From: Planctomycetaceae bacterium
GTDB taxonomy: Bacteria > Planctomycetota > Planctomycetia > Pirellulales > PALSA-1355
DNA: 49,417 nt
Direction: 5' to 3'
NCBI GenBank assembly: GCA_003153375.1
Contig: PLYM01000235.1
Coordinates: 211 to 49,627, forward strand
Below, piece after piece: positions 39,287 to 49,397 of the stretch. A program made the translations under genes and the position numbers. Under the pieces are notes generated by a model. It was not told where the DNA came from. It did no database searches and saw only the letters and a program-made list of their open reading frames with translations. How positions within the stretch are numbered: position 1 is the first letter of the stretch; each line of letters opens with the position of its first letter.

Positions 39287-39355
39287 GCCGTCTTTGCAGA
39301 ATTGTTCATAATACGCGGTTTATGGCGGCGAAACCGGGGGGAGTTGAGCGACAGC

Positions 39356-40450
39356 ATGGCACATGAGGTTACGTTAATTACCGGAGACGGCACCGGTCCG
39401 GAGCTGGCCGAGGCCGCTCGTCGTTGTGTCGACGCGACGGGCGTGAAGATCAACTGGGACGTGCAGGAAGCCGGCGTCGACGTGATGTTGCGACTCGGCA
39501 CGCCGCTGCCCGACGCGGTGATGGAAAGCGTGCGCCGCACCAAGTGCGCGCTGAAGGCTCCGATCACGACGCCCGTTGGCACCGGCTTTCGCAGCATCAA
39601 CGTCCATCTACGCCAGGCCCTGGGTCTGTATGCCTGCATCCGTCCCTGCAAGCACTACGAAGGCGTGCGCACCTTCTTCAACTCGGTCAAGGTCGACCTG
39701 GTGATCGTTCGCGAAAACACCGAAGACCTGTATGCCGGCATCGAGTTCGAACAGGGCAAGCCCGAAACCAGCCGGCTGATCAAAGTCATCAACCGACTTT
39801 CGCCCGATCGACAAATCAAAACCTCAGCGACCGAAACCGGCATTTCAATCAAGCCGATCAGCGTCAGTGGCAGCGAGCAGATCGTCAAGTGCGCCTTCGA
39901 CTATGCGCGCGACAACGGCCGCAAGACCGTGACCTGCGTTCACAAGGCGAACATCATGAAGCACACCGACGGGCTGTGGCTGGCCACCGCCCGCGAAGTG
40001 GCCAAGAAGTATCCCGACATCGGTTTCGAAGACCGCATTGTCGACAACATGTGCATGCAACTGGTGCAGAAGCCCGAGTTGTACGACGTGCTGGTGCTGC
40101 CGAACCTGTATGGTGACATTCTCAGCGACCTGGCTGCCGGCCTGGTCGGCGGCCTGGGCGTGGCGCCTGGCGCCAACATCGGCCCCAACGGCGCCGTGTT
40201 CGAAGCGACGCACGGCAGTGCTCCGAAGTATAAGGGCCAGAATCGGGTCAACCCAACGGCCCTGATTCTGTCGGGCATGTTGATGCTCAAGTATCTGGGC
40301 GAGGCCAACGCGGCCAGCCGGTTGGAAAAGGCCGTGGCCGACGTGATCGCCGAAGGGAAGAACGTCACCTACGATCTCAAGCCCGACCGCAACGACCCGA
40401 CCGCCGTCGGCACCCGCGAAATGGCCGAAGCGATCTGCAAGAAGTTGTAG
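39356..40450 (+). CDS. NAD-type isocitrate/isopropylmalate dehydrogenase family protein
   Basis: This 364-residue enzyme is in the beta-decarboxylating dehydrogenase family. It has [13 protein letters not shown] near the N-terminus, the substrate-loop region [20 protein letters not shown] (in part), [31 protein letters not shown], the D-rich metal and active-site VDNMCMQL and [27 protein letters not shown] (in parts), and [17 protein letters not shown]. The short length, the [11 protein letters not shown] segment and HGSAPKYKG point to a mitochondrial-type NAD isocitrate dehydrogenase rather than LeuB, but homoisocitrate and isopropylmalate enzymes are close. I start at the ATG at 39356 because the family motif follows directly. 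Its product may feed the TCA cycle; the next gene starts 161 bp on, across a paired repeat. Confidence 0.85.
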
Positions 40451-40488: not shown

Positions 40489-40564
<76 letters not shown>

Positions 40565-40611
40565 ACAGATGCCGACCGGAATTGCGTGTCGCCGGCCGCG
40601 CACCGCTACGG

Positions 40612-41697
40612 ATGGCGAACATTTTGCTCAGTCCGTCGGCATTTCGAGAGCTGGTCAGTGGTCGCCGCCAAGGAGCGGTGGCCGCCGCCACGCGCGCGGC
40701 GTTGCGACTGCTCGAAATTCCTTATACGGCCGCCGTCTCTTGGCGGAACCGGCAGTTCGACCGCGGCCGGCGCCCCATCGACAGCGTCGGCGTGCCGGTG
40801 CTCAGCGTCGGCAACATCACGCTCGGCGGCACGGGGAAGACCCCGGCCGTCGAATGGCTGGCAAATTGGTTTGCTGCGCATGGCGTGCGTGTGGGACTCG
40901 TCAGCCGCGGCTACGGTGCGAGGCCGGGCGTGGCCAACGACGAAGCGCTCGAGCTCGCGCAAAAGTTGCCCGGCGTGCCCCACGTGCTCGACGCGAATCG
41001 GGTGCGCGGAGCAACCAAGGCTATCCAGGAATTCGGCTGCCAGCTCGTGCTGCTGGACGATGGCTTTCAACATCGACGGCTGCACCGAGATTTGGACATC
41101 GTGCTGGTGGATGCCAGCGAACCGTTTGGGTTCGGCCACGTGTTTCCGCGCGGCACGCTGCGCGAACCTCTATCGGGCTGGTCGCGGGCCGGCGTGATCG
41201 TGCTGACCCGCGCGGAGCTGCTAGGCGCCGATGAGAGGGTGCAGCTTCGCAATCAGATCCTGCGCTACGCGCCGCGGGCCCTGTGGGTTGAGGCCACGCA
41301 CGCTCCGCGAGCGCTCGTCTCACCGACCGGCGAGCAATTGCCGTTCGGCCACCTGGCCGGACAAAAGATCGCGGCCTTTTGCGGCATCGGCAATCCGGCC
41401 GGCTTTTGGCACTCGCTCGCCGGCTGCGGCTATCGATTGGCGGCGAAGCAAGAGTTTGCCGACCATCACGCATATTCCCCCGCCGACATCGAATCGCTGG
41501 CCTCCTGGTCGGGCGGGCTCGACGTGGCCGCGGTGGTCTGCACCGGCAAGGACCTGGTCAAAATCGGCGGTCGCTGGCCAGGGGCACGGCCGCTGTTTGC
41601 CCTCTCCAGTCAGATGCAGATTCTGGCCGGCAAGGCCGAATTCGAAGCCGTGCTCATGCCCCTTGTCCGCAGGGCCCGCGGCGAAAAGGATTCCTGA
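40612..41697 (+). CDS. lpxK: Tetraacyldisaccharide 4'-kinase
   Basis: This 361-residue inner-membrane kinase adds the 4' phosphate to the lipid A disaccharide. It carries PVLSVGNIT, the phosphate-binding GGTGKTP at 72-78, GLVSRGYGARPG near 95-106, LVLLDDGFQHRRLHRDLDIVLVD (in part; DDGFQH is the catalytic region), PRGTLREPLSGWSRA and AFCGIGNP. The start is the ATG at 40612, which gives a family-like N-terminus (LSPSAFRELVSGRRQG); the longer open frame back to 40489 lies in the inverted repeat. It opens the plus-strand LPS cluster. No waaA is next to it, unlike in many Gram-negative genomes. Confidence 0.93.
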   Translation: MANILLSPSAFRELVSGRRQGAVAAATRAALRLLEIPYTAAVSWRNRQFDRGRRPIDSVGVPVLSVGNITLGGTGKTPAVEWLANWFAAHGVRVGLVSRGYGARPGVANDEALELAQKLPGVPHVLDANRVRGATKAIQEFGCQLVLLDDGFQHRRLHRDLDIVLVDASEPFGFGHVFPRGTLREPLSGWSRAGVIVLTRAELLGADERVQLRNQILRYAPRALWVEATHAPRALVSPTGEQLPFGHLAGQKIAAFCGIGNPAGFWHSLAGCGYRLAAKQEFADHHAYSPADIESLASWSGGLDVAAVVCTGKDLVKIGGRWPGARPLFALSSQMQILAGKAEFEAVLMPLVRRARGEKDS

Positions 41698-41771
41698 ACG
41701 CCTGAAACTCTCAGCCAAGTGAGACTTACTGATCTTGGTCGATTTCGGCTGGCAAGGCTATGTTGTGCCTC

Positions 41772-42869
41772 ATGAGCGAGCCGGAGATTGCACTTTTGTT
41801 GTCCACGTACCAGCGACCCGCGCACCTGCGCCGTGCGCTGGCGTCGATTGCATTGCAAGCAGGGGTCGCGGGGCGGATGGAGCTGATCGTGACCGACGAC
41901 GGCTCAACCGACGAAACCGCCGCGATCGTCCAAGAGTTCGCCCGCACGGTCCCGTTCCCGGTGGGCTTCACGACCCATCCGCACAAGTCGTTCCAATTGT
42001 CGCGTTGCCGCAACGAAGGCGCCCGGGCCAGTCGCGCGCCCTACCTGCTGTTCATGGACGGCGATTGCATCCTGCCCCCCGATCACGCGCGGATTCACCT
42101 GGAGCACCGCAAGCCGGGCGTGGTCATGGCCGGCGATTGCGTGCGGCTCGACCAGGAAACGTCGGCGCGGATCTCGATCGACACCATCCAACGCGGCGAA
42201 TTCCAAAACATCGCTTCGTCCCGCGAACTGCGGCGTTTGCAGCGACAAGCCCGGGCATCGTGGTTTTATCGCCTGCTGCGACATCCCACGAAACCGAAGT
42301 TGATCGGCAACAACGTCGGCATTTGGCGGGCCGACTTCGAGCGCATCAACGGCTACGACGAGAACTTTCAGGGCTGGGGCTGCGAGGACGACGACCTGCG
42401 CTTTCGCCTGCGCCACTCAGGCGTACACGTCGAGTCGATTCTGCCCTGGACCCACACGTTTCACCTCTGGCACCCGAACGACTCCAGCTTGCCAGCCCTT
42501 TGGAAACAGGGAGCCAACGTCAACTATCTGCTCCGCAAGGGCCGATTGACGCGGTGCCGCAACGGCCTTGAGAAACGGCCGCTAGCAGACCTCGCCATTC
42601 GCGTGATCGGCCAGCCGAATGAGCCGCACGCCGTCGCGCGGCTGTTCCGTGGTCGCTTTGGCTCGCGGCGGGCCGTCGAGCCGGAAGTCGAAATCCTCTT
42701 TCTTCCCGGCGAGGGACGCTTTAGCGGCCAGGCCGAGTGTAACGTGGTCGTCGCGCTCGATGACCATGCCGCTCGGTCTTCGCTGGCACGGCGTGCCCAC
42801 CTGACCATCACGTCCCCCGCCGCCGATTCGCTCGATCAAATCGAGCAAGCATTGGCGGCCGTGGCCTGA
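41772..42869 (+). CDS. Family 2 glycosyltransferase with galactosyltransferase-like C-terminal part
   Basis: This 365-residue protein has a GT-A fold: ALLLSTYQRPAHLRRAL at the N-terminus, DDGSTD at 42-47, the metal-binding MDGDC (D95 and D97), then GNNVGIWRADFERINGYDE and GWGCEDDDLRFRLRHSG (motifs in parts), the latter typical of the glyco_transf_7C galactosyl/chondroitin-type subgroup. A C-terminal region of about 120 residues (from KRPLADLAIRVIG) is not part of the catalytic fold. Donor and acceptor are unknown. The ATG at 41772 gives a compact N-terminus; another in-frame ATG at 41760 adds four residues. It lies between lpxK and hldE, so it likely works on lipopolysaccharide or a cell-surface polysaccharide. 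Confidence 0.82.
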   Translation: MSEPEIALLLSTYQRPAHLRRALASIALQAGVAGRMELIVTDDGSTDETAAIVQEFARTVPFPVGFTTHPHKSFQLSRCRNEGARASRAPYLLFMDGDCILPPDHARIHLEHRKPGVVMAGDCVRLDQETSARISIDTIQRGEFQNIASSRELRRLQRQARASWFYRLLRHPTKPKLIGNNVGIWRADFERINGYDENFQGWGCEDDDLRFRLRHSGVHVESILPWTHTFHLWHPNDSSLPALWKQGANVNYLLRKGRLTRCRNGLEKRPLADLAIRVIGQPNEPHAVARLFRGRFGSRRAVEPEVEILFLPGEGRFSGQAECNVVVALDDHAARSSLARRAHLTITSPAADSLDQIEQALAAVA

Positions 42870-42972: not shown

Positions 42973-43062
42973 CACCGCTCGCTGCACCGTGCCGACGTGG
43001 CCGCCCGTGCCAGCGTCGCCCCGAAGACATCCGCTGCTCGCTCATTGGGAATGGAAGCCCGC

Positions 43063-44604
43063 ATGAGTCCGAACGATCTCGTCCACGTACTCGAGTCCGT
43101 GCAGCATCCCAGGATCCTGGTGCTGGGCGACTTGATTCTCGATCGCTACACGTGGGGCAACGCCGAACGCATCAGTCAGGAAGCCCCCGTGATCGTGTTG
43201 CGCGCCGATCGCCGCGAGGCGCGCCTAGGCGGAGCGGCCAATGTGGGCAACATGTTGGCCGGACTCGAAGCCCGCGCGTCCTGCTGCGGCATCGTGGGGG
43301 AAGACGCGGCCGGCAACGAGCTGCGTGGCCTGCTCGTCGATGCCGGCGTCGATTGCGAGCTGGTGCTGGCGGATCTACGGCGTCCCACTTCTGTGAAAGA
43401 GCGCTTCATCGGCCGCGCGAGCAGCCGCCATCCCAACCAGATCCTGCGCGTCGACCATGAAGACTGCGAACCCCTGTGCTCGCCGCTCGAAAACGAACTG
43501 ATCCTCAAAATCGCCGCGCGCATTGCCGACTTCGACGCGGTGCTGATTTCCGACTATGGCAAAGGCGTCTGTACGCCCCGCGTGCTCAGGGCGGTGATCG
43601 AAGCGGCCCAGCAGGCGGGCGTGATTTCGATCGTCGACCCGGCCCGCGGCTGTCCGCTGGAGCACTATCGTGGCGTGACCGTGATCAAGCCGAATCGCAT
43701 CGAGACCGAACAAGCCGTCGGCCGCAAGATCGCCGATTCTGGCGATGCCCTGGCGGCGGGCCGGGAGCTTTGCCGCGAGTTGGATGCCGAGATGGCACTC
43801 GTCACGCTCGATCGCGATGGCATGATGCTCGTCGAGCGCAACGGCGACGGCGAGATTTTTCCGACGCACGCCCGCGCGATTTACGACATTGCCGGAGCTG
43901 GTGACATGGTGCTGGCCACGGTGGGCCTGTGCATGGCCGGCGGCGCCAGCGGCGCCAATGCCGCGCGGCTGGGCAACGTCGCGGCCGGCCTGGAAGTCGA
44001 ACGCGAGGGCGTGGCGGTCATTTATCGCGACGAGATTCGCGCCGCGCTGCTCTCGGCCCAGGGCGGGCCACCGCGAAAGATCATCACGCTGGCCGAGGCC
44101 GCAGTGCTGGCCGCCGGACATCGTCATCGCGGCCAACGCGTGGTCTTCACCAATGGCTGCTTCGATCTCTTGCACGTCGGCCATGTCACCTACCTGGCCG
44201 AAGCGGCGGCACTAGGTCATGTGCTGATCGTGGGCGTCAACAGCGATGCCAGCGTGCGCAAGCTCAAGGGCCCGGAACGGCCCGTCATCGGCGAGAGTGA
44301 CCGCGCGGCCATGCTGGCGGCGCTGGCCTGCGTGCAGCACGTCATCGTGTTCGACGACGACACGCCGCACGAGATGCTGCGGGCCATCCGCCCGGACGTG
44401 CTGGTCAAAGGCGGCACCTACACCACCGAACAGGTCGTGGGCCATGAGGTCGTCGAAGCCTACGGCGGCTCGGTTTGCGTGACCGGCGTCGTCGACGGCA
44501 TTTCGACCACGAACATCCTGGCCTCGCTCGCCCGCGGCGAGACGGCCCCTTCGCTCACTCCCACACCACCCCGCTCCGGCCAGCCGTTGCGCCGCGCCGG
44601 TTGA
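43063..44604 (+). CDS. hldE: Bifunctional heptose 7-phosphate kinase / heptose 1-phosphate adenylyltransferase
   Basis: This 513-residue protein combines both activities that flank GmhB in ADP-heptose synthesis. The first domain (about 1-320) is a PfkB-type kinase with RLGGAANVGNML, VKERFIG, VLISDYGKGV, VTVIKPNRIE and the ATP-site GAGD at 278-281. The second (about 345-480) is a nucleotidyltransferase with TNGCFDLLHVGHVTYL starting near residue 362, including the HxGH motif, then SDASVRKLKGPERPV and KGGTY. The full fusion matches the E. coli HldE layout. The ATG at 43063, with a GGAAG box five bases upstream, was preferred over the ATG at 43051. The C-terminal tail (about 490-513) is Pro/Ser-rich and not conserved. 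Confidence 0.95.
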   Translation: MSPNDLVHVLESVQHPRILVLGDLILDRYTWGNAERISQEAPVIVLRADRREARLGGAANVGNMLAGLEARASCCGIVGEDAAGNELRGLLVDAGVDCELVLADLRRPTSVKERFIGRASSRHPNQILRVDHEDCEPLCSPLENELILKIAARIADFDAVLISDYGKGVCTPRVLRAVIEAAQQAGVISIVDPARGCPLEHYRGVTVIKPNRIETEQAVGRKIADSGDALAAGRELCRELDAEMALVTLDRDGMMLVERNGDGEIFPTHARAIYDIAGAGDMVLATVGLCMAGGASGANAARLGNVAAGLEVEREGVAVIYRDEIRAALLSAQGGPPRKIITLAEAAVLAAGHRHRGQRVVFTNGCFDLLHVGHVTYLAEAAALGHVLIVGVNSDASVRKLKGPERPVIGESDRAAMLAALACVQHVIVFDDDTPHEMLRAIRPDVLVKGGTYTTEQVVGHEVVEAYGGSVCVTGVVDGISTTNILASLARGETAPSLTPTPPRSGQPLRRAG

Positions 44605-44650: not shown

Positions 44651-45478
44651 ATGAAACAAAAACTCACCGTCGTCATCCCCTGCAAGAACGAACGGAAAAA
44701 TATCCGCGCGTGCATCGAGTCGGCGAAGCGCGTCGCCGACGAGGTGCTGGTGGCCGATTCCGGTTCGACCGACGGCACGCTCGAGATCATCGACGATGCC
44801 GGCGGTTGCCGCGTGATCGAGCGCGAGTATCTCAATTCCGGCAACTTCAAGAACTGGGCCATCCCGCAAGCCCGTCATCCCTGGGTGCTGATCCTCGACT
44901 CCGACGAACGCGTGACGCCCGACTTGGCGACGGAAATCAACATACTATTGAGCGGCGCTCCCCCGCGCGACGGCTACCACATTTATCGCGCAAACTATTT
45001 TTTGGGACACCGTATTCGCCACGCCGGCTGGGGCGCCGACAAGGTGATGCGGCTGTTTCGCCGCGACTTGGGGCGCTACGTGGGCGAGAGCGACCACGCC
45101 GAGATCCACGTCAGCTCGGGCAACGTCGGCCATCTGCGCCAGCGGCTCGAGCACTACACCTATTGGACGTACGACCAATACTTTCAGAAGCTCTCGCGCT
45201 ACACCGTGCAAGGGGCCCGCAACTATTACGCGGCCGGCAAGCGGGTCAGCTATTGGCGCATGCTGCTGAGCCCACCACTGCGGTTCCTGCACTGCTACTT
45301 CATCCGCCTTGGCTTTCTGGACGGGCTGGTCGGTCTGCAAATCAGCGCGCTGACGGGCATGTCGTCGTTCGTCAAGCAGATTCGGCTTTGGGAATTGGAG
45401 CACGCGCGGCCGCAAGGCGATCCAGAGCAGGAGCGGGCCGAACGGCATCAGGCCATGGCGGCGCGCGAGGCGGCCTGA
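44651..45478 (+). CDS. Family 2 glycosyltransferase, LPS core type (WaaE/KdtX-like)
   Basis: This 275-residue enzyme resembles WaaE/KdtX-like core glucosyltransferases. The GT-A nucleotide-sugar motifs are VVIPCKNERKNI at 7-18, ADSGSTD at 35-41 and LDSDERV at 82-88. Further on come GYHIYRANYFLGHRIRH (in part), WGADKVMRLFRR and a region with several aromatic and hydrophobic residues (YWRMLLSPPLRFLHCYFI, in part) that may lie at the membrane. WaaE adds a beta-1,4 glucose to the first heptose of the inner core; the exact sugar here is unknown. It starts 46 bp after hldE and is followed by two family 9 genes, so a core-assembly role is likely. Confidence 0.86.
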   Translation: MKQKLTVVIPCKNERKNIRACIESAKRVADEVLVADSGSTDGTLEIIDDAGGCRVIEREYLNSGNFKNWAIPQARHPWVLILDSDERVTPDLATEINILLSGAPPRDGYHIYRANYFLGHRIRHAGWGADKVMRLFRRDLGRYVGESDHAEIHVSSGNVGHLRQRLEHYTYWTYDQYFQKLSRYTVQGARNYYAAGKRVSYWRMLLSPPLRFLHCYFIRLGFLDGLVGLQISALTGMSSFVKQIRLWELEHARPQGDPEQERAERHQAMAAREAA

Positions 45479-45574
45479 GCGGGGCCTGCGTCACTGGCCC
45501 AAGAAACCAAAACAGCGTACGTGACAAGACCGACCGAGAGTGCGTAACTTCGACGCGTGAGGGGGTGTGACTTG

Positions 45575-46672
45575 GTGTGGAGCAAAACAACAAAACCGCG
45601 GCGCATCGTGCTGGTGCGAAACGACGGGATCGGCGATTTGGTGCTGACGTTGCCAGCGATGGCGGCGATTCGTCGCCAATTTCCGGATGCCCACTTGACC
45701 GCCCTGCTCGGTCCTGGCGCGGCGGGCTTGCTGGACGGCAGCCATCTGATCGACGGCACAATTGTCGACGACCCGAGCCACGGCCATTTTCAATTGGCGG
45801 CCCGCTTGCGGCAGGGACGCTTTGACACGGCCGTGGTGTTCAACAGCAAGTCGCGCAACTGCCGGGCGATATGGCTGGCCGGAATTCCGACGCGGGTCTG
45901 CTGGGGCTATACGCCGCTGGGAATGTTGCTGGGCAACCGACGGATCTTCGTCCACCGCAGCCGACCACCGATTCACGAGTCGGCCTTTTGCCTGGAATTC
46001 GCCCGCCGCTTGGAGGCCCAGCCGCAGTCGACCGACTTCGCACCACAACTGGCGATCGACACGCCCCTGCGCGCACAAATCGCCTCGCGGATTGCCGGCG
46101 AACTCGGCACCTCCGGCCCTCTGTTCGGCGTGCATCCCGGCGACAAAGGCAGCGCGTACAACTGGCCGGCCTCGCAGTATGCCGAGTTGGCCATTCGCCT
46201 GGCCCGCGTGGGCCGCGTGATCGTCACCGGCAAGCAATTGGAGCGCCCGCTGCTGGAGCAAATTCGTTCGCAGCTCAGCGATGAGACGCGCAAGCGCGTC
46301 GGCCTCTTATGGAATCTCGATTTGCTCGAGCTGGCCGCCGTCATCGAACAGCAGACGTCCCTGACGGTCGGCAGCACCGGGCCGATGCACGTCGCGGGCA
46401 TCGTGGGCACCAAGGTCGTTGCGCTGTTCAGTCCCCACCCCTGCCACTCGCCGAAGAAGTGGGCACCGCTGGGAGACGGCCACACGCTGCTCGTCGCGCC
46501 GCTGGAAGCTGGAGAAGACCCGTACGTGCCCCGCGCCAAGTCAGCCGCCGTCATGGCCAGAATCAGCGTCGAACAAGTGCTGGAAGCCAATTTGCGGATC
46601 GCGCGCGACTCGCTCGGCCCAGCCGCCGCGCGTGTGCACGCCCCCGGTGACATCGCTCAACAAGCCGCCTAA
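45575..46672 (+). CDS. Family 9 glycosyltransferase, heptosyltransferase-like
   Basis: This protein of about 365 residues is a GT9 family member like WaaC/WaaF, moving heptose or a similar sugar onto the LPS inner core. Typical marks are LVRNDGIGDLVLTLPAM near the N-terminus, GVHPGDKGSAYNWPASQYAEL (in parts), a GSTGPMHVAGIVGT donor-site loop and SPHPCHSPKKWAPLG. I prefer the GTG at 45575, which has a GAGGGGG ribosome site nine bases upstream; the frame is open from 45557, with another possible TTG at 45572. It is separated by 14 bp from the next gene, so the two are co-transcribed. Confidence 0.85.
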   Translation: MWSKTTKPRRIVLVRNDGIGDLVLTLPAMAAIRRQFPDAHLTALLGPGAAGLLDGSHLIDGTIVDDPSHGHFQLAARLRQGRFDTAVVFNSKSRNCRAIWLAGIPTRVCWGYTPLGMLLGNRRIFVHRSRPPIHESAFCLEFARRLEAQPQSTDFAPQLAIDTPLRAQIASRIAGELGTSGPLFGVHPGDKGSAYNWPASQYAELAIRLARVGRVIVTGKQLERPLLEQIRSQLSDETRKRVGLLWNLDLLELAAVIEQQTSLTVGSTGPMHVAGIVGTKVVALFSPHPCHSPKKWAPLGDGHTLLVAPLEAGEDPYVPRAKSAAVMARISVEQVLEANLRIARDSLGPAAARVHAPGDIAQQAA

Positions 46673-46686
46673 GGAGCCCCGAGTCC

Positions 46687-47679
46687 ATGAGCCGTTATGA
46701 ATTGTTCGACCGTGGCCGCATCGCCCTGCAGGATCTCTCCGAGCGGGGTCACGACCTGTTGGCCAAGGATTGCCAGCCACTGTCGGCCCGGTTTCCCGTT
46801 TATTCGCATCCCGAGTTCGCCTCGCTGGTTTCGCGCCTGGTAGCCGCGCGACAACAGGGACGCAACGTGGTGCTGATGATGGGCGGCCATGCGATCAAGC
46901 TCGGCCTGTCGCGCTACCTGGTCGACCTGGTCGAACGGGGCCTCGTGACCCACCTGGCCACGAATGGGGCGGGCATCATTCATGACTTCGAATTGGCCGC
47001 CGGCGGGGGCACGAGCGAAAATGTTTCGAAGTGGATTCAACGCGGGCAGTTTGGTCTCTGGCAGCAGACGAGCCGGCTGAACGACATCATCTTTCAGGCC
47101 GCCAATCGGGGCGAAGGACTGGGCGAGGCCGTCGGCCGCGTGATCGAAGAAGAGCAATTGCCCTTTCGCCACCTGAGCATCGCCGCCGCCGGCTGGCGGA
47201 TGGGAGTGCCGGTCACGTCGCACGTCGGCGTCGGCAGCGACATCATTCACGCGCACGCCAATTGCGACGGCGCGGCCCTGGGCGCGGCCAGCTACACCGA
47301 TTTTCTGATTTTCGCCCAGAGCATCGCCGGACTCGAAGGGGGCGTGTTTCTCAACATCGGCTCGGCGGTGACCGGGCCGGAAGTCTATCTCAAGGCGCTC
47401 TCGATGGCCCGCAATGTGGCGGCCCAGCGACGCGAGCACATCAGCAACTTCACCACGGCCGTGTTCGACCTGGTCGAGTTGCCGGCCGATTTTCGCAAGG
47501 GCCCGCCATCGAAGAGCCACCCGCAGTATTACTACCGCCCCTGGAAAACGATCCTGGTGCGCACCGTGGCCGACGGCGGACGCAGTTACTTTTTCTCGGG
47601 CGATCTCAGCTCGACGATCCCCACGCTGTGGCGCGACGCGGTCGCCGCGCAATCGGCCGATAGCCTGCGAGCCGCCTGA
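46687..47679 (+). CDS. Deoxyhypusine-synthase-like protein of unknown role in the LPS cluster
   Basis: This 330-residue protein looks like a distant deoxyhypusine synthase (DHS)-type Rossmann protein. The pattern LMMGGHAIKLGLSRYLVDLV at 63-82, THLATNGAGIIHDFELA at 88-104, MGVPVTSHVGVGSD at 172-185, and TDFLIFAQSIAGLEGGVFLNIGSAVTGPEV (in parts, 204-233) follows the DHS order. Near the C-terminus PWKTILV (285-291) lies where DHS has WGK, and SGDLSSTIPTLW where DHS has its last strand and helix. Bacteria lack eIF5A, so true hypusine formation is unlikely. The gene lies between a heptosyltransferase and gmhB, with 14 and 30 bp gaps, so it probably acts in sugar-nucleotide or LPS work. The relation is from reading, not from a search. 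Confidence 0.6.
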   Translation: MSRYELFDRGRIALQDLSERGHDLLAKDCQPLSARFPVYSHPEFASLVSRLVAARQQGRNVVLMMGGHAIKLGLSRYLVDLVERGLVTHLATNGAGIIHDFELAAGGGTSENVSKWIQRGQFGLWQQTSRLNDIIFQAANRGEGLGEAVGRVIEEEQLPFRHLSIAAAGWRMGVPVTSHVGVGSDIIHAHANCDGAALGAASYTDFLIFAQSIAGLEGGVFLNIGSAVTGPEVYLKALSMARNVAAQRREHISNFTTAVFDLVELPADFRKGPPSKSHPQYYYRPWKTILVRTVADGGRSYFFSGDLSSTIPTLWRDAVAAQSADSLRAA

Positions 47680-47709: not shown

Positions 47710-48339
47710 GTGAAACAACGGGCCGTATTTCTCGATCGTGATGGCACGCTGATTCGCGACATTCCCTACGCGCATCGCGTCACCGATTTGCACCTACTCA
47801 ACAATGCCGTCGCGGGGCTGCGCGGCTTCATGGCGCTGGGCTTCAAGTTGATCGTCGTCACTAACCAGTCGGGCATCGGGCGGGGATACTTCACCGAAGA
47901 AGACATGCGGCACTTTCACGAGGCGCTCGAGGGCCAACTGCGCGCCGAGGGGGTGGAACTCACCGCGATCTACTATTGCCCCTACCATCCGACCGAAGGC
48001 ATCGGCCCCTATCGTCGGCCGTCGGAGCTGCGCAAGCCGCGGCCCGGCATGCTGCTGCGAGCCGAGCGACACCACGATTTGGACCTGGGCGCCAGCTATA
48101 TGATCGGCGACCGCGAACGGGACATCGTGGCCGGCCAGGCGGCGGGCTGCCACACGATTCTGGTACGCGACGCCAGCGGCGCGATCCCGGCAGACCTGAA
48201 GGCTCGACCCGACTTCATCGCGCCCGATCTGCTGGCGGCGGCGCGGTTCGTCGAGCGTAACGAGCGGCCCGTCAGCGCCGTCCCCCGGCCGGCGCATCGT
48301 GGCTTCCTGCCCCTGACCCCGACACTCGAGGAAGCGTGA
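47710..48339 (+). CDS. gmhB: D-glycero-D-manno-heptose 1,7-bisphosphate phosphatase
   Basis: This 209-residue HAD-superfamily phosphatase removes the 7-phosphate between the two HldE steps. It has the catalytic FLDRDGTL (D9 and D11), VTNQSGIGRGYF at 50-61, the Lys in RKPRPGML near 108-115 and GDRERD with D134 and D138. In E. coli GmhB a zinc loop uses a Cys and a His followed by two Cys; here C90 and H93 are present, but the next pair is replaced by SELRK (105-109), so the zinc site is incomplete. The start is a GTG at 47710. Its stop overlaps the GTG of the next gene by four bases (GTGA). Related phosphatases (HisB-type) are close, but the LPS context favours GmhB. Confidence 0.9.
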   Translation: MKQRAVFLDRDGTLIRDIPYAHRVTDLHLLNNAVAGLRGFMALGFKLIVVTNQSGIGRGYFTEEDMRHFHEALEGQLRAEGVELTAIYYCPYHPTEGIGPYRRPSELRKPRPGMLLRAERHHDLDLGASYMIGDRERDIVAGQAAGCHTILVRDASGAIPADLKARPDFIAPDLLAAARFVERNERPVSAVPRPAHRGFLPLTPTLEEA

Positions 48340-49397
48340 CCTTGAAAATCGGCGTGTTTGTTCCCAATTGGATCGGCGACGTGGCGATGGCCACGCCAAC
48401 GCTGCGCGCGCTGCGACGACACTATGGTCCTCAAGCGGAAATTATCGGCATCCTGCGCCCTTACGTCGCCGAGGTGCTGGCCGGCACGCGCTGGCTCGAC
48501 CGGCAGATCCTGTTTCATCCCAAGTCGGCCAACCCGGCTGAAAAAACCTGGGGCGTGCTCGAACAACTGCGCCGCGAGCGCTGCGATACGTTCCTGCTGC
48601 TGACCAACTCGCTGCGCAGCGCGGCGCTGGCTTGGGCCGCCGGAGGAAGCCAGCGCGTCGGCTATGTGCGCAATGCGCGCGGCCCGTTGTTGACGCATCG
48701 GCTCTATCATCCGCGCAAGGGTCGCGCCTGGCTGCCCACGCCGGCGATCGACGTCTATCTGCAATTGGCCTACGCGGTCGGTTGCGAGTTGGAATCACCA
48801 CGGCTCGAGCTGGCGACCTTGCCCGCGCACGAGGCGGCCGCCGACCGGGTTTGGAATCAACATCGTCTGCCGCACGGCGAACGTGTCGTGGTGCTCAACT
48901 CAGGCGGGGCCTATGGCGCGGCCAAGCTCTGGCCGACGGAATACTTCGCCGAACTGGCCCGGCGAATCGCCAGCGAACATGACCTGGCGGTGTTGGTCAA
49001 TTGTGGACCGGCCGAACGGGCCGTGGCCGAGCAAATCGTGGCGGCGGCCCATCATCCGCGCGTCGTCAGCCTGGCTGACCAGCCGCCGTCGATCGGCCTC
49101 AGCAAGGCGTGCATCCGCCGCAGCCGTCTGCTGGTGACCACCGACAGCGGGCCGCGCTTCTTCGGAATTGCTTTCGGCGTGCCGATGGTGTCGTTGTTTG
49201 GCCCGACCGATCCGGCTTGGACGCGCACGCACGAGCCGAGCGAGATCTGCCTGCAACACGCCGTGCCCTGTGGCCCCTGCGCAAAGCGGAGCTGCCCCCT
49301 GGGACATCATGAGTGCATGCGGTTGCTCACAGTCGAGCGTGTGCATGCCGCCGTGGCTGCTCAACTGACGAAAAGCCGCATCGGACAGGCGGCCTAA
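48336..49397 (+). CDS. waaF: LPS heptosyltransferase, WaaF-like family 9 glycosyltransferase
   Basis: This 353-residue protein is a second GT9 enzyme, closer to heptosyltransferase II. The N-terminal VFVPNWIGDVAMATP is the classic WaaF opening. Then come LTNSLRSAALAWAAG, RVGYVRNARGPLLTHRL (in part), VLNSGGAYGAAKLWP, VTTDSGPRFFGIAFGVPMVSLFGPTDP (in parts) as the donor loop, and a Cys-rich CGPCAKRSCPLGHHECM end typical of the WaaF group. The start is the GTG at 48336 in the GTGA overlap with gmhB; a TTG at 48342 is also possible. It should add the second inner-core heptose. It is the last gene in the window, ending 20 bp before the edge. Confidence 0.92.
   Translation: MTLKIGVFVPNWIGDVAMATPTLRALRRHYGPQAEIIGILRPYVAEVLAGTRWLDRQILFHPKSANPAEKTWGVLEQLRRERCDTFLLLTNSLRSAALAWAAGGSQRVGYVRNARGPLLTHRLYHPRKGRAWLPTPAIDVYLQLAYAVGCELESPRLELATLPAHEAAADRVWNQHRLPHGERVVVLNSGGAYGAAKLWPTEYFAELARRIASEHDLAVLVNCGPAERAVAEQIVAAAHHPRVVSLADQPPSIGLSKACIRRSRLLVTTDSGPRFFGIAFGVPMVSLFGPTDPAWTRTHEPSEICLQHAVPCGPCAKRSCPLGHHECMRLLTVERVHAAVAAQLTKSRIGQAA

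Follow-up and report, generated by a model that had tools for sequence, protein, structure and literature searches.

The window, i.e. the whole stretch of 49,417 nucleotides analysed here (G000:C99:211-49627), belongs to a planctomycete genome of 6.7 Mb. It carries a lipopolysaccharide (LPS) region in which the genes follow the order lpxK, GT2, hldE, GT2, GT9 heptosyltransferase, GSU2086-family gene, gmhB, waaF:

40489..41697, + strand: LpxK, lipid A 4'-kinase; part of the same LPS region, further upstream, and its start codon is uncertain (TIGR00682, 167.9 bits, cut-off 91.95)
41760..42869, + strand: GT2-type glycosyltransferase, between lpxK and hldE
42997..44604, + strand: HldE, fused heptose-7-P kinase and heptose-1-P adenylyltransferase (NF008454, E 4e-126; TIGR02199, 195 bits, above cut-off)
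44651..45478, + strand: GT2 glycosyltransferase (PF00535)
45557..46672, + strand: GT9 heptosyltransferase-like protein (PF01075; TIGR02195, 90 bits, below cut-off)
46687..47679, + strand: GSU2086-family protein (NF052581) with a deoxyhypusine synthase (DHS)/ornithine-cyclodeaminase fold, proposed heptose C6-epimerase replacing HldD (365 bits, cut-off 250; clade II of the family tree)
47710..48339, + strand: GmhB, heptose-1,7-bisphosphate 7-phosphatase (PRK08942, E 1e-43)
48336..49397, + strand: WaaF-type heptosyltransferase II (TIGR02195, 148.5 bits, cut-off 134.6)

The ORF at 46687-47679 (+) encodes a product of 330 aa and begins with ATG, with AAGGAG, a good ribosome-binding site, about 12 nt upstream. 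It starts 14 bp after the end of the heptosyltransferase gene (46672) and is followed, after a gap of 30 bp, by the GmhB gene (start at 47710), within which (end at 48339) the WaaF gene starts at 48336, giving a 4-base overlap. This order, with its gaps and overlap, had been described in an earlier note made from the sequence alone, and all coordinates agreed; the names given there to the neighbours (heptosyltransferase, gmhB, waaF) were matched by PF01075, PRK08942 and TIGR02195. The ORF is a genuine gene: its relatives in GTDB (106 confirmed, 80 kept), together with 48 invariant columns across 78 sequences, place it far beyond chance. No close second copy was found in the window genome. Just upstream of lpxK, at 39302-40450, the window encodes an isocitrate dehydrogenase-type protein, for which the closest NCBIfam models scored under their own cut-offs.

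Against the NF052581 model ("GSU2086 family"), the window protein scored 365.1 bits (cut-off 250) over model positions 2-300 of 301 and, judged from its sequence, it is a full-length member. NF052581 is an NCBIfam family named only after the Geobacter sulfurreducens locus tag GSU2086, without an assigned function. Sequence resemblance to DHS was weak, with 20.4 bits for Pfam DS (PF01916; cut-off 27) and 12-14 bits for the NCBIfam DHS models, versus cut-offs above 300. The model of the ArgZ/AgrE domain (PF21570) was also below threshold (15.5 bits, cut-off 27). A PDB search with the single sequence of the window protein gave no significant match, and a search from the family alignment gave a weak ArgZ/AgrE match alone; plain sequence search was thus too weak, and a fold comparison was needed to find relatives in the PDB. 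For an AlphaFold model built from 78 relatives (mean pLDDT 95.8, pTM 0.93), DHS was ranked first by Foldseek (7cmc, E 7e-9). With VIA-align, the highest fold score was obtained against the ornithine-cyclodeaminase domain of AgrE/ArgZ (Z 19.7, 221 residues aligned), and DHS gave Z 18.9 for the archaeal (7cmc) and 18.7 for the human (1dhs) structure, with about 255 residues aligned at 12% identity. Profile-profile comparison with true Planctomycetota DHS-family proteins returned a homology probability of 97-98%. The structure prediction, its comparison with human DHS and the profile comparison bear out the DHS-type fold that the earlier note had proposed. Family membership and fold are established, and the window protein represents a separate family inside the DHS/ornithine-cyclodeaminase superfamily.

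The window protein resembles DHS (PF01916; 7cmc, 1dhs) in fold and profile relation, but it lies under the Pfam cut-off, its family does not keep the DHS lysine throughout and the invariant residues are others. It also shares its fold with the C-terminal domain of ArgZ/AgrE (PF21570; 6juy, 6lrf/6lrg) and with the archaeal LOR/SDH 3c2q. The likeness to ArgZ/AgrE extends to an HD-x-E segment (NAIAVHDIE in ArgZ, NGAGIIHDFE in the window protein); however, the window protein has no arginine dihydrolase domain, and its gene context is heptose, not amino-acid, metabolism. DHS and ornithine cyclodeaminase both use NAD, and the 1dhs and 6lrg structures are NAD complexes. By analogy with this fold, the cofactor of the family would be NAD.

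Near-universal residues in 166 family members included R20, G66, H68, G73, H99, D100, E102 and E111, as well as D185, D205, K236, N243, D261, Y281 and R284. The earlier note had given weight to PWKT (residues 285-288 of the window protein) as an altered form of the WGK active-site motif of DHS. In the hhalign alignment, the W of PWKT fell on the W of WGK and K287 one column before the DHS lysine; K287 was invariant in clades II-IV of the family tree and variable in clade I, the main LPS clade, where the commonest residue was T (35%). K287 is therefore not a family-wide catalytic lysine and, given the one-column offset as well, DHS lysine chemistry is not a family trait, so that the weight placed on the motif does not hold. 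The PWKT lysine was accordingly rejected as the catalytic residue of the entire family.

On sequence grounds, the window protein is not a DHS. Its fold and its profile relation to DHS would suit a true DHS-like enzyme that modifies polyamines or a protein and lies in an LPS operon by chance, but we regard this as very improbable: the heptose/LPS context is conserved in several phyla, the lysine next to the DHS position varies in clade I, and a separate DHS-family gene, for a bis(guanidino)azanonane synthase (C265), is present in the genome. Bacteria have EF-P and not hypusinated eIF5A.

The separate gene (G000:C265:7384-8280; L191:1429-2481) encodes a true DHS-family protein with 1,9-bis(guanidino)-5-aza-nonane synthase as its best NCBIfam match (612 bits), and genes of this type are common in Planctomycetota. 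Genes scored as HldD (269-298 bits; L193 G035:C32, L195 G051:C20, L196 G017:C34 and L199 G084:C69) have a true DHS-family gene as their immediate neighbour in families f21 and f49; these HldD-scored genes may encode either a real HldD or a polyamine-pathway SDR.

Gene neighbourhoods were compared for 80 GTDB loci and about 130 Planctomycetota and Acidobacteriota loci. Two contexts were observed among them: context A (LPS/heptose), with lpxK, a lipid A acyltransferase gene, the GSU2086 gene and hldE, in some cases also with gmhA, gmhB or heptosyltransferase genes; and context B, in which a HAD phosphatase, GSU2086 and a PfkB kinase akin to the kinase domain of HldE make up a compact cassette. 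These cassettes often encode a GmhA-like SIS isomerase as well, which in some Clostridia is fused to the HAD, and sometimes add a ROK kinase, a sugar ABC transporter and a LacI regulator. In the family tree, clade I and clade II, which includes the window protein, are found in context A, clade III is found nearly always in context B, and clade IV is small and has a long insert. Genes for HldE, GmhB, LpxK, LpxL or GT9 proteins were neighbours at 62 of the 68 clade I loci and at 13 of the 20 clade II loci. The association with heptose/LPS genes (hldE, gmhB, gmhA, lpxK, heptosyltransferase genes) recurs in Planctomycetota, Acidobacteriota, Elusimicrobiota and Geobacter, and is thus established; the tie to heptose and LPS-core synthesis that the earlier note had drawn from one operon was repeated in several phyla.

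In G. sulfurreducens, GSU2086 itself has this heptose operon context, between hldE and gmhA. A transposon survey of this species on electrodes gave log2 ratios of -3.1 for hldE (GSU2085), -3.2 for GSU2086 and -3.7 for gmhA (GSU2087) (PMC5585712). Such like scores are expected for genes of one pathway, and polar effects inside the operon are possible.

Several further observations were made on the divergent clades and on unusual loci. The cassette of HAD phosphatase, GSU2086 and PfkB kinase, with or without SIS, ROK and sugar ABC transporter genes (L020-L081, e.g. L073:9156-12667, L056:820-12144 and L076), occurs in Clostridia, Treponema, Anaerolineaceae, Acidobacteriota and Planctomycetota, and reads as an undescribed sugar(-phosphate) pathway. 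ORFs of about 272 aa adjoining GSU2086 were considered as GmhA candidates and rejected, since Pfam identified them as HAD phosphatases; the SIS-HAD fusions of Clostridia had misled the profile. Clade III copies stand beside adenylyltransferase, kinase and SIS genes at L125 (G161:C5) and L070 (Elusimicrobia); G161 also has a clade I copy, and therefore two GSU2086 genes and two heptose-type clusters in one genome. Clade IV proteins (L168, L171, L174, L175, L178, L181, L183, L184) are divergent and carry some 60 inserted residues; for most of them, no heptose or cassette neighbours were recognised. Finally, at L091, L092 and L098, hldE is followed on its 3' side by a gene for a radical SAM/B12-binding protein and then by a second, split pair of HldE-like kinase and adenylyltransferase genes, which suggests a second activated heptose or a related sugar.

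We found no GmhA/SIS gene within the window, as the earlier note had stated, and on this absence it had raised the idea that the window protein takes the place of GmhA. Replacement of another pathway step, be it that of GmhA or of GmhB, is hardly credible and already largely refuted: a GmhA-type SIS isomerase is encoded elsewhere in the window genome (G000:C92:53485-53961), GmhB adjoins the gene in the window itself, and SIS, GmhB and GSU2086 genes are found together at L123, at L140 and, side by side, in the relative L019. The window protein showed no match to the SIS domain by which GmhA is recognised. GSU2086 was thus ruled out as a GmhA substitute. The operons at L123 and L140 hold HldE in addition to GSU2086, the GmhA-type SIS and GmhB, which leaves HldD as the sole known step unaccounted for.

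HldD is the ADP-L-glycero-D-manno-heptose 6-epimerase, which inverts C6 of ADP-heptose. In the window genome, the best HldD score was 121 bits (cut-off 274.6), so that HldD is absent, with the GmhA-type SIS, HldE and GmhB present. HldD was above its cut-off in only 1 of 48 GSU2086-carrying genomes (G225, whose GSU2086 copy, L044, is in context B). We then counted both genes in 195 Planctomycetota genomes of 90% completeness or more: GSU2086 was found in 99 (97 without HldD), HldD in 46 (44 without GSU2086), both in 2 and neither in 52. Co-occurrence in 2 genomes, versus about 23 expected, corresponds to a Fisher p of 2e-14 with ancestry ignored, and the two genes form a mosaic inside families f25 (11 HldD, 6 GSU2086), f34, f49 and f56. 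The 149 Acidobacteriota genomes gave a similar result, with GSU2086 in 48 (46 alone), HldD in 40 (38 alone), both in 2 and neither in 63 (Fisher p = 7e-6, ancestry again ignored). The double carriers have clade III cassette copies only (G264 and G286, Acidobacteriota), a clade IV copy only (G003, Planctomycetota), or come from a MAG that is split into 1340 contigs and 7% contaminated (G049, Planctomycetota). As these are divergent types or a contaminated MAG, clade I and HldD were never clearly found together in the sample, and the exclusion of HldD is established in the two phyla. No sampled genome of the window's own class has HldD, and the exclusion is therefore uninformative for clade II itself.

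HldD was also exchanged in place. Genomes of family f25 share the order rpoZ-lpxK-lipid A acyltransferase (lpxL)-[X]-hldE, where X was HldD in 7 genomes and GSU2086 in 6 (genes named by Pfam), and each of the 17 HldE-bearing f25 genomes sampled had exactly one of the two. The f25 genomes with HldD are nested among those with GSU2086 in the HldE tree, which means that at least one true swap took place in this family; swaps in further families are implied. The HldD-bearing f25 genomes fall into one or two groups in the trees of both HldE and LpxK, and the number of independent exchange events is modest. The two proteins thus share a slot before hldE in members of one family and exclude each other, but HldD (HldD/GmhD, TIGR02197) is an SDR epimerase (PF01370), whereas the window protein is folded differently and, with E values up to 1 allowed, matched neither TIGR02197 nor PF01370.

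We therefore propose, with a probability of roughly 0.6, that the GSU2086 family does the C6-inverting job of HldD by means of a different fold, in the ADP-heptose branch of LPS-core synthesis. HldD, which was left out of the options in the earlier note, is the missing function that fits. That note's link to heptose and the LPS core, its DHS-type fold and its view of the gene as a candidate for an undescribed activity all stand; its GmhA replacement and its reading of the altered WGK motif do not. A literature search, with subscription journals mostly outside it, found no paper describing what GSU2086 does, and none on DHS-like enzymes acting on sugars or on a substitute for HldD.

We infer both the reaction and the substrate, which may be a heptose phosphate or ADP-heptose. 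A soluble enzyme would turn the D-glycero heptose into the L-glycero form by inverting C6: a bound nicotinamide would transiently oxidise the C6 hydroxyl, and re-reduction would follow from the opposite face, as HldD does with its other fold. Some clade III cassette genomes, including Clostridia, have no HldE adenylyltransferase at all, yet most invariant residues are common to the family, which makes a heptose phosphate, not yet activated with a nucleotide, a somewhat likelier substrate than ADP-heptose; clades may differ in this respect.

The exclusion and the common operon slot would also be produced by two alternative heptoses. The protein could then be a different heptose-modifying enzyme (acting in another epimerisation, an oxidation, a deoxygenation or a branch reaction) in organisms whose core heptose is a different one and makes HldD unneeded. 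The clade III cassettes, with no adenylyltransferase nearby, are in keeping with such an enzyme, as are several Planctomycetia (including G089, G129, G188, G192, G036 and G052) that have HldE but neither HldD nor GSU2086 above cut-offs, where heptose synthesis seems possible without either gene. However, HldD was exchanged in place between the same lpxK-lpxL and hldE neighbours, for which a like-for-like swap is the simplest explanation, and we consider a different heptose modification unlikely. The Planctomycetia with neither gene may make do with D,D-heptose, or a third epimerase may be at work in them.

Identification as an HldD replacement is firm in the case of clade I, and weaker in that of clade II, to which the window protein belongs: with no HldD in the window's class, and with neither gene in several HldE-bearing Planctomycetia, the assignment of clade II is based on homology and operon context. 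Clade II is nearer to clade III (median identity to the window protein of 53%) than to clade I (36%); the clade III relatives in SIS/PfkB/HAD cassettes are 45-57% identical to the window protein, and clades II and III share a C-terminal motif, RPWKT...RTVADGG, which is absent from clade I. Clade II might therefore keep the reaction of the clade III cassettes, feeding or draining a heptose-phosphate pool, with HldD replaced by clade I only. We find this improbable, as clade II genes adjoin those for HldE, GmhB, LpxK and heptosyltransferases and not a HAD/PfkB cassette.

Replacement of HldD may be part of a wider picture, which we put forward tentatively and with odds somewhat against it: a family of the DHS/ornithine-cyclodeaminase fold that epimerises a sugar would provide a second, unrelated route to L-glycero-D-manno-heptose, acting on heptose phosphate before activation, in a step order unlike that of Escherichia coli, and the same reaction would take place in the isomerase/kinase/phosphatase cassettes of Clostridia, Acidobacteriota and Planctomycetota.

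L-glycero-D-manno-heptose is the conserved inner-core sugar of most LPS, and HldD has been the sole enzyme known for the last step of its synthesis. In both Planctomycetota and Acidobacteriota, many members lack HldD although the rest of the pathway is plainly there. If our proposal is true, this hole in the pathway would be closed for both phyla and possibly for Geobacter as well; a fold of polyamine and amino-acid chemistry would gain a sugar activity, and a family so far named after a locus tag would gain a testable function.
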